DNA from: a virus
Virus record (IMG/VR): IMGVR_UViG_3300005253_000535
Span: 1-45,756 of that record
Reading direction: 5' to 3' (one strand)
Length of the DNA stretch: 45,756 nucleotides
The number at the start of each line of letters is the position of its first letter. Position 1 is the stretch's first letter. Below are positions 35,936 through 36,994 of the stretch, piece by piece. Under the pieces are notes generated by a model. The model was not told where the DNA came from, made no database searches, and worked only from the letters and a program-made list of their open reading frames with translations. The translations under genes were made by a program, and so were the position numbers.

Positions 35936-35964
35936 ATGTTAGCAGATACTTATAGGGCTGTCAA
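35936..35964 (-). promoter_or_regulatory. Promoter of the small RNA, without operator
   Basis: On the minus strand TTGACA (35959-35964), 17 bp, TAACAT (35936-35941). The predicted start at about 35929 is right at the first hairpin. No TACGCGTA-like site is present, so it should be active in lysogeny as well as in lytic growth. Confidence 0.8.
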
Positions 35965-36183: not shown

Positions 36184-36381
36184 TCATCCCCTGGGGTGCC
36201 TCAGATCGTGCGTCTCGTGGTAGTCGCACCCCTCTGCGGGACAGACGACGGAGACGCGCCCCTCATACTGGTCGCGGTCTACCCAGCCAGCCGACCCACA
36301 AGACGGGCAGCGGATATAGGCGTGCCGCTCGTCGCCCTTCAGTGGCCCGTAAACCACCTCTGGGGCTATTCCTGTAGTCAC
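36184..36381 (-). CDS. Zinc-ribbon protein, 65 aa
   Basis: GTG at 36381 with AAAGGAGG 6 nt upstream; this ribosome-binding site begins at the last base of the tmRNA-like RNA's CCA end. Cysteine pairs CPSC and CPAEGC, 21 residues apart, form a zinc ribbon of the transcription-factor type. It is probably transcribed from the tmRNA-like promoter, so the two may share regulation. Confidence 0.7.
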   Translation of the reverse strand: MTTGIAPEVVYGPLKGDERHAYIRCPSCGSAGWVDRDQYEGRVSVVCPAEGCDYHETHDLRHPRG

Positions 36382-36394
36382 TGCTTTCCTCCTT

Positions 36395-36481
36395 TGGTGG
36401 AGGCGGTCGGAGTTGAACCGACGTCTGCCAGAGCTGCGGGAGATGCCGCTTCTACTTCTCCGGCACGAACCCGTCGCCCCC
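36395..36481 (-). ncRNA. tmRNA-like / tRNA-like RNA, 87 nt, with G3-U70 acceptor pair
   Basis: On the minus strand the 5' end GGGGGCG pairs with CGCCTCC at the 3' end in all seven positions, with a G-U pair at position 3, then discriminator A and CCA. G3-U70 plus A73 is the alanine identity set shared by tRNA-Ala and tmRNA. The T-arm is GTCGG, TTCAACT, CCGAC. After the acceptor comes GACGGG, as near the 5' end of tmRNAs, then a hairpin GTGCCG/CGGCAT with a 12-nt loop. No anticodon arm with a U33 loop can be drawn, and no mRNA-like domain fits. A promoter lies directly upstream. Confidence 0.6.
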
Positions 36482-36489
36482 ACGCTCCC

Positions 36490-36519
36490 ATTATACGCGC
36501 GCCCCCCGCACATAGCCAA
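36490..36519 (-). promoter_or_regulatory. Promoter of the tmRNA-like RNA
   Basis: On the minus strand TTGGCT (36514-36519), 18 bp, a perfect TATAAT (36490-36495). The predicted start, 6-8 nt downstream, coincides with the first bases of the acceptor stem. No operator copy is present. Confidence 0.7.
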
Positions 36520-36883: not shown

Positions 36884-36994
36884 TACGCGTTATACGTGGG
36901 GAGCAAACGCGTTGCCCATTCTATCGCCAAACGGCCTACGCGGGGTTGACACGTCATACGCGTGGGCCTAACATAGACTTGACGGTTACGCGTA
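36884..36994 (+). promoter_or_regulatory. Operator cluster and rightward early promoter
   Basis: TTGACA (36946-36951), 17 bp, TAACAT (36969-36974). Five operator-like sites: TACGCGTT 36884-36891, AACGCGTT 36906-36913, TACGCG 36937-36942, TACGCGTG 36957-36964 (in the spacer, 5 bp from the -35) and TACGCGTA 36987-36994 (downstream of the start). Spacings are 22, 31, 20 and 30 bp. This is the densest cluster in the genome and faces the long early operon. Confidence 0.8.

Follow-up and report, generated by a model that had tools for sequence, protein, structure and literature searches.

What kind of RNA lies at positions 36395-36481 of this viral genome, and what could it do for a phage? The window (the whole stretch of 45,756 nucleotides analyzed here) had been proposed to encode there an RNA resembling tmRNA that has the alanine identity pair and lacks an mRNA domain. 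The Rfam match, the fold, and the G3-U70 pair bear this out, and the RNA, for which the original prediction gave no strand, is now assigned to the minus strand. We are close to certain that this locus is a phage tmRNA of which the tRNA-like domain (TLD) and a P2 helix with a hairpin cap remain, and that it is the first unit of a leftward operon, with a promoter of its own. We call this 87-nt TLD-only tmRNA, encoded CCA included, mini-tmRNA. Its sequence, on the minus strand from 36481 to 36395, is GGGGGCGACGGGTTCGTGCCGGAGAAGTAGAAGCGGCATCTCCCGCAGCTCTGGCAGACGTCGGTTCAACTCCGACCGCCTCCACCA, and its parts and immediate surroundings are as follows.

36395-36481, minus strand: TLD-only tmRNA (RF00023 match, homologue covariance model, unique pattern match)
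36475-36481, minus strand: 5' strand of the acceptor stem, GGGGGCG, with G3 of G3-U70 (7/7 pairs with 36399-36405)
36466-36474, minus strand: D-loop region of tmRNA type, ACGGGTTCG, with the GA..GG.TTCG element (cmscan alignment to tmRNA positions)
36426-36465, minus strand: P2 helix and cap, AAGTAGAA-[GCGG-CATCTC-CCGC]-AG, replacing the pseudoknots and mRNA-like domain (fold; P2 covaries among homologues)
36406-36422, minus strand: T arm, GTCGG-TTCAACT-CCGAC (5/5 pairs)
36399-36405, minus strand: 3' strand of the acceptor stem, CGCCTCC, with U70 of G3-U70 (pairing with the 5' strand)
36395-36398, minus strand: A73 discriminator and encoded CCA (from the sequence)
36490-36519, minus strand: sigma-70-like promoter TTGGCT-18-TATAAT, predicted start at about G1 (10/12 consensus matches, with an expectation of 0.2 sites this good over the 1.2-kb region)
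36184-36381, minus strand: 65-aa ORF starting with GTG after an AGGAGG, the first of the protein genes in the leftward operon that the RNA heads (directly downstream of the RNA)

A tmRNA without its message

A cmscan search of the whole window against Rfam 15 returned a single match, tmRNA (RF00023) at 36395-36481 on the minus strand, with 48.2 bits (E 4e-16), barely higher than the cut-off of 47 bits. The match spans model positions 1 to 374, so that both ends of the model are covered and the middle, of about 300 nt, is missing. A covariance model built from seven homologous short RNAs, all from other loci, scored the window RNA at 47.9 bits (E 3.4e-9, filters off), with the runner-up in the window at 15.8 bits. 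The pattern GGGGNNGAN{1,4}GGNTTCGN{25,50}GGTTCRANTCC matches once in the window and in 0/100 dinucleotide-preserving shuffles; together with the covariance model, this rules out a chance hairpin. Since the folding energy alone is ordinary (z -1.8), it is homology and covariation that carry the case for this RNA. A tRNA or tRNA pseudogene is also ruled out, as ARAGORN found 0 tRNA and 0 tmRNA genes over the window and the Rfam scan gave no match there to tRNA (RF00005) or to the permuted tmRNAs (RF04321, RF01849-51). The comparison of tmRNA and tRNA models that had been suggested as a check is thereby settled for the former.

The seven acceptor pairs, G3-U70, A73, and the encoded CCA are all present, 36481 being the 5' G1, 36398 A73, and 36397-36395 the CCA. 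The predicted tmRNA-type T arm around TTCAACT forms all five stem pairs (GTCGG/CCGAC). The D-loop is also of the tmRNA type (GGGTTCG) and the D stem is absent. Between the D-loop and the T arm there are 40 nt, in which the hairpin expected in place of the mRNA-like part consists of an 8-bp P2 (TGCCGGAG/CTCTGGCA, with one G-U) and a 4-bp inner hairpin (GCGG/CCGC). One detail of the original prediction was mis-registered: the GACGGG that it placed near the 5' end is not the UUCGACGGG of bacterial tmRNA, but a real aligned element exists, the tmRNA-specific 5' element GA..GG.TTCG, in which cmscan aligns the GACGGGTTCG of the window with GAUCUGGAUUCG.

The 7-bp acceptor stem, the missing D stem, the GG.UUCG D-loop, the T arm, and the alanine identity (G3-U70 and A73), with no mRNA-like domain, pseudoknots, or tag ORF, place the RNA among TLD-only tmRNAs. 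The covarying stems of a conserved RNA gene are seen at the family level, the window copy being one without close relatives. A canonical ssrA is excluded by the lack of a resume codon, a tag frame with a stop, and pseudoknots, a permuted two-piece tmRNA by the normal order of the two acceptor strands within a single 87-nt unit, and a tRNA by the lack of a cloverleaf D stem and anticodon arm. The window copy is also divergent from its relatives, with UUCGUG instead of UUCGAC, GCAGAC instead of GGAC, and no AAR-CC apical motif.

Promoter and genomic context

The predicted promoter with a TATAAT hexamer and a start at the acceptor 5' end was recovered as TTGGCT-18-TATAAT, with the -10 hexamer 8 nt upstream of G1. 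The mini-tmRNA is the leading unit of a leftward operon located in a divergent control region. The 65-aa ORF that follows it has a weak likeness to the zinc finger of the restriction-alleviation protein Lar (Pfam PF14354, E 0.015, below the gathering score). The region is flanked by two more strong promoter-like sites, TTGACA-17-TAACAT in both cases, at 35936-35964 (minus strand) and 36946-36974 (plus strand), with ACGCGT/TACGCG repeats nearby; together they probably mark the phage's divergent control region. A tally of promoter positions over many loci of the family gave no shared -10 offset, and many copies are probably transcribed by read-through and then processed.

The virus itself, a 45.8-kb record, encodes DNA polymerase A, a beta-clamp, proteins of the uracil-DNA-glycosylase superfamily and ParB-like type, a Cas4-type exonuclease, a DNA methyltransferase, an amidase/endolysin, a major head protein, and a tail-spike-like protein. 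No integrase was found among the selection of window ORFs scanned. Half of the genome, used as a megablast query, had no match among 50,697 phage records, and the sliding clamp revealed no relative in viral contigs.

A widespread family in viruses

The search for homologues in other phages, also suggested with the original prediction, uncovered a widespread family. The pattern given above retrieved 89 stretches from IMG/VR (set 1), almost all of them short tmRNA TLDs, and a second pattern with no acceptor constraint (set 2) retrieved at least 120. After false positives had been dropped by stem pairing (L011, L047, L050/L088, L067, and L068), both viral patterns and the bacterial loci described below amount to at least about 135 unique mini-tmRNAs. 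Most relatives are 65 to 85 nt long, with GA before and GAC after a P2 of 6 to 10 bp, and in most of them P2 carries an apical element, AAR-RCC-N4-6-GG-A, while a minority has a plain hairpin. GG.TTCG is common to most relatives (that of phage Riptide lacks it), but this element in both sets, and GGAC in set 2, were built into the search patterns, and their frequencies are not independent evidence. ARAGORN overlooks 132 of the 135 relatives among the matches listed, its three overlapping calls being two tmRNAs and one tRNA-Arg. The two tmRNA calls, at L005 and L181, were rejected as hidden full-length genes: they span unrelated upstream DNA with the tag "not identified," and Rfam places only the mini-tmRNA. 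Partial BLAST matches in Pseudomonas phage SM1 were likewise discarded, being permuted tmRNA genes.

Isolated carriers include the Streptomyces phages BRock, LuckySocke, GiJojo, pSt2308, Shaeky, and Riptide, the Pontimonas phage phiPsal1, and the Stenotrophomonas virus Jojan60; Alone3 is known from a BLAST match alone. In all isolated carriers the mini-tmRNA is unannotated or lies beneath a doubtful ORF. The hypothetical proteins SEA_GIJOJO_44 (GiJojo, PP725410.1, 17023-17265) and UPU15879.1 (Jojan60, ON045087.1, 37776-37916) overlap it and may be spurious ORFs. Several phages of the BRock group share the same slot, between tRNA-Val and tRNA-Ser, and in the Streptomyces phages the gene is inside large tRNA arrays with an RNA ligase gene nearby; in phiPsal1 it is upstream of the major capsid gene. 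No single gene family accompanies the mini-tmRNA, the neighbors differing between locus groups.

Some other RNAs were found in these loci. In three viral loci, L051:12313-12382(-), L181:6093-6154(-), and L063:6730-6794(-), a self-cleaving Pistol ribozyme precedes the mini-tmRNA by about 105 to 230 nt and shares its strand; none was found in 29 other loci scanned. Its cleavage could help to free the mini-tmRNA from a long transcript. A related viral contig has a type II hammerhead ribozyme about 1.8 kb upstream, L053:2267-2343(+). Weaker covariance matches of 33 to 43 bits, L082:3458-3529(-), L042:4049-4116(+), G001:C58:4906-4973, and G067:C50:11927-11994, are possibly second mini-tmRNA copies or odd tRNAs. 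One virus lineage (L003/L070) has a tag-bearing tmRNA together with the mini-tmRNA. The full tmRNA of the lineage with both RNAs, at L250:517-892(-) and L252:566-941(-), has an unusually long predicted tag, ANNIVRFEDFTACGEELALAA.

Mini-tmRNAs in bacterial chromosomes

A strict pattern applied to 84,980 species genomes gave 13 loci, eight of them in Poribacteria. In the two of these that we examined (L097 and L099), the mini-tmRNA adjoins the same pyridoxal-dependent decarboxylase gene, and P2 shows compensating changes between Poribacteria genomes. In six of the eight carrier genomes there is also a full tmRNA, whose tag, AD[QE][EQ]LALAA, is ordinary. A wider scan of the phylum, with strict filters, found matches in 11 of 58 genomes. 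The carrier from the Acidimicrobiales had a match in 1/100 relatives, which suggests that its copy is on a mobile element.

Covariation and conservation of the alanine identity

In an alignment of 80 members, which was fitted to the model structure and hence somewhat inflates the figures, 96.2% of the paired cells can pair (66.9% in shuffles), and double changes occur in 18 of the 23 pairs; the covariation score reaches 0.640, compared with 0.133 after shuffling and at most 0.094 with the partner slid. The P1, P2, and T stems all covary strongly across the family, and the acceptor and T stems pair also without the model-fitted alignment. Double changes affect 8/8 pairs of P2; hence, the helix that replaces the message is itself maintained.

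The alanine identity is nearly invariant. G3-U70 is found in 61/62 members of set 1, for which the viral pattern left position 70 free (its few bacterial loci came from a pattern that constrained it), and in 60/61 members of set 2, where L146, with a small deletion that shifts the register, is the exception; overall, about 121 of 123 members have it, and A73 is present in 61/61 of set 2 (set 2 and overall counts among the matches listed). Pairs 5 and 6 of set 2 exist in six and four pair types, respectively, among the matches listed. G3-C70 would pair equally well, and ancestry alone would hardly preserve a single wobble pair amid neighbors that turn over, which argues that alanylation is selected. 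Judged from sequence conservation, the family would thus be under selection for alanine chargeability. This selection is seen at the family level, to which the window RNA belongs as a divergent copy with no close relative in the collections searched.

Possible function of the mini-tmRNA

We consider it fairly likely that the window RNA works as an alanylated competitor of the host tmRNA. Host AlaRS would charge it through G3-U70, as selection on this pair suggests, and host SmpB and EF-Tu would bind it by the retained D-loop/T-loop elbow and P2, both conserved. The charged RNA would then presumably enter stalled ribosomes, where it could accept the nascent chain. With no resume codon it would encode no tag. 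The net effect during infection would be that the host tags fewer proteins and degrades fewer proteins and non-stop mRNAs, whether because SmpB is titrated or because stalled ribosomes are blocked or silently discharged, to the putative benefit of the phage. This scheme builds on what we established directly: how the RNA is built, its homology and covariation, the near-invariance of its alanine identity, and the lack of phage genes for the partners tested. The operon-head position in the divergent control region and the tRNA arrays of the Streptomyces phages are suggestive in the same direction. No SmpB gene was found in 49/49 carrier virus records, nor any RF-1-domain protein or peptidyl-tRNA hydrolase in 44 of them, many of these records being fragments; therefore, any action in ribosome rescue must use host AlaRS, EF-Tu, and SmpB.

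An alanylatable decoy or ribosome-rescue modulator had been anticipated, and by analogy this family of functions appears the best supported, since the TLD-only tmRNA of the type found in mycobacteriophage DS6A is reported, in passages of PMC4131195 and PMC11915505, to inhibit Escherichia coli tmRNA. The published inhibition is reported to be independent of charging, yet the alanine identity is nearly invariant, so that simple SmpB titration fails to explain the conservation. Titration alone does not predict a near-invariant G3-U70, and a charged, ribosome-engaging form is favored. What a pure inhibitor model mainly leaves unexplained is that the mini-tmRNA coexists with a tag-bearing tmRNA, as it does in Poribacteria and in one virus lineage. 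We tentatively put forward, as a possibility short of an expectation, that mini-tmRNAs are a large and mostly unrecognized class of alanylatable "stub" tmRNAs, present in numerous lineages of tailed phages and established as an additional chromosomal gene in a clade of Poribacteria, which would use their alanine to seize the nascent chain on stalled ribosomes for tag-free rescue or as a covalent trap, beyond the sequestering of SmpB.

This coexistence suggests a separate job and bears on an alternative that we regard as unlikely but worth weighing, in which the RNA is a spare rescue RNA and not an inhibitor. The alanyl-mini-tmRNA, with SmpB and EF-Tu, would take the nascent chain on non-stop ribosomes and add one alanine, with host factors recycling the complex and no proteolytic tag. 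The near-invariant alanine identity predicts just such an active acceptor role, and tag-free tmRNA occurs with SmpB in jakobid and oomycete mitochondria according to passages of PMC11915505. However, the mini-tmRNA has no stop codon to release the peptide, the phage records tested contain no release-factor-domain protein or peptidyl-tRNA hydrolase, and the published effect of the DS6A type is inhibitory.

It is improbable that the mini-tmRNA acts as a resistant spare in a tRNA set, that is, as an anticodon-less and message-less TLD that survives the tRNA- or tmRNA-destroying nucleases or toxins of phage exclusion, or as a sponge for such enzymes. The copies in large tRNA arrays near an RNA ligase gene in Streptomyces phages would fit, as would the tRNA gene within 300 bp of 27/135 relatives (among the matches listed), but most relatives, the window RNA included, have no tRNA gene nearby within the stretch examined, and an uncharged sponge would not need G3-U70. 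Quite improbable, too, is that the RNA donates alanine to a non-ribosomal reaction (an aminoacyl-RNA-dependent ligase) or is a processing or cis-regulatory element in the 5' leader of the next gene. The conserved alanine identity agrees with the former and the position of the window RNA directly before the ribosome-binding site of the next ORF with the latter, but no recurrent ligase gene was recognized nearby and the neighboring gene families vary between locus groups.

Phages that integrate at ssrA may carry off pieces of it, and the window copy is divergent with a score just over the Rfam cut-off; however, the remnant of a captured ssrA that was initially considered, or an attachment-site fragment, is already largely refuted and extremely improbable, given that the match extends beyond the ssrA 3' end to both TLD halves (which rules out an attP/ssrA 3' fragment), that these halves are conserved and their stems covary in relatives, and that the RNA has its own promoter with no integrase among the window proteins scanned. 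The mini-tmRNA, which we read preferentially as a competitor, is a widespread gene, and probably a functional one.

Comparison with known tmRNAs

DS6A, the only phage for which our search of the open literature yielded a described TLD-only tmRNA (Mao et al. 2009, as cited in PMC4131195 and PMC11915505), had been a curiosity. With the same architecture now known from more than 100 viral sequences, as well as from bacteria that also retain a normal tmRNA, it has become a class open to testing. Given the near-invariance of the alanine identity, simple SmpB titration is hardly the whole story, and the fate of a nascent chain passed to a message-less tmRNA is a question that can be addressed with the isolated Streptomyces, Pontimonas, and Stenotrophomonas phages. 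The 132/135 examples overlooked by ARAGORN (among the matches listed) also expose a gap in annotation.

The kind of RNA found in the window is thus already known from DS6A, and what is new is the breadth of the family, the selection on its alanine identity, the recurrent apical element, and the coexistence with full tmRNA. We found no description of the breadth, alanine conservation, apical element, or chromosomal version in the open-licence papers searched. DS6A is one published phage case, whose sequence is absent from the collections searched and which is likened to the window RNA by description only; the window phage has no close relative in the phage collection, and the DS6A record is not part of that collection. 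In PMC11915505, a 2025 database paper that processed RefSeq viruses, DS6A is the phage example beside CDS-less mitochondrial and plastid genes. Those organellar tmRNAs (of jakobid and oomycete mitochondria, and the plastid genes of about 65 bp of Mallomonadaceae) have, per the same paper, likewise lost the mRNA-like domain and kept the TLD. However, they are vertically reduced and are the only tmRNA of their organelle, whereas the mini-tmRNA is viral and, in Poribacteria, an extra gene beside the normal tmRNA.

With canonical one-piece tmRNA (ssrA, RF00023), the window RNA shares the acceptor stem with G3-U70, A73, the GG.UUCG D-loop, the T arm, and P2, but it has no pseudoknots, resume codon, or tag ORF and is 87 nt long instead of about 350 to 400 nt. 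Permuted two-piece tmRNAs (RF04321, RF01849-51) are also phage encoded, in phages such as Melnitz and SM1. They keep the coding piece (the SM1 match is of this permuted kind), while the mini-tmRNA has both acceptor strands in one uninterrupted RNA in the normal order.
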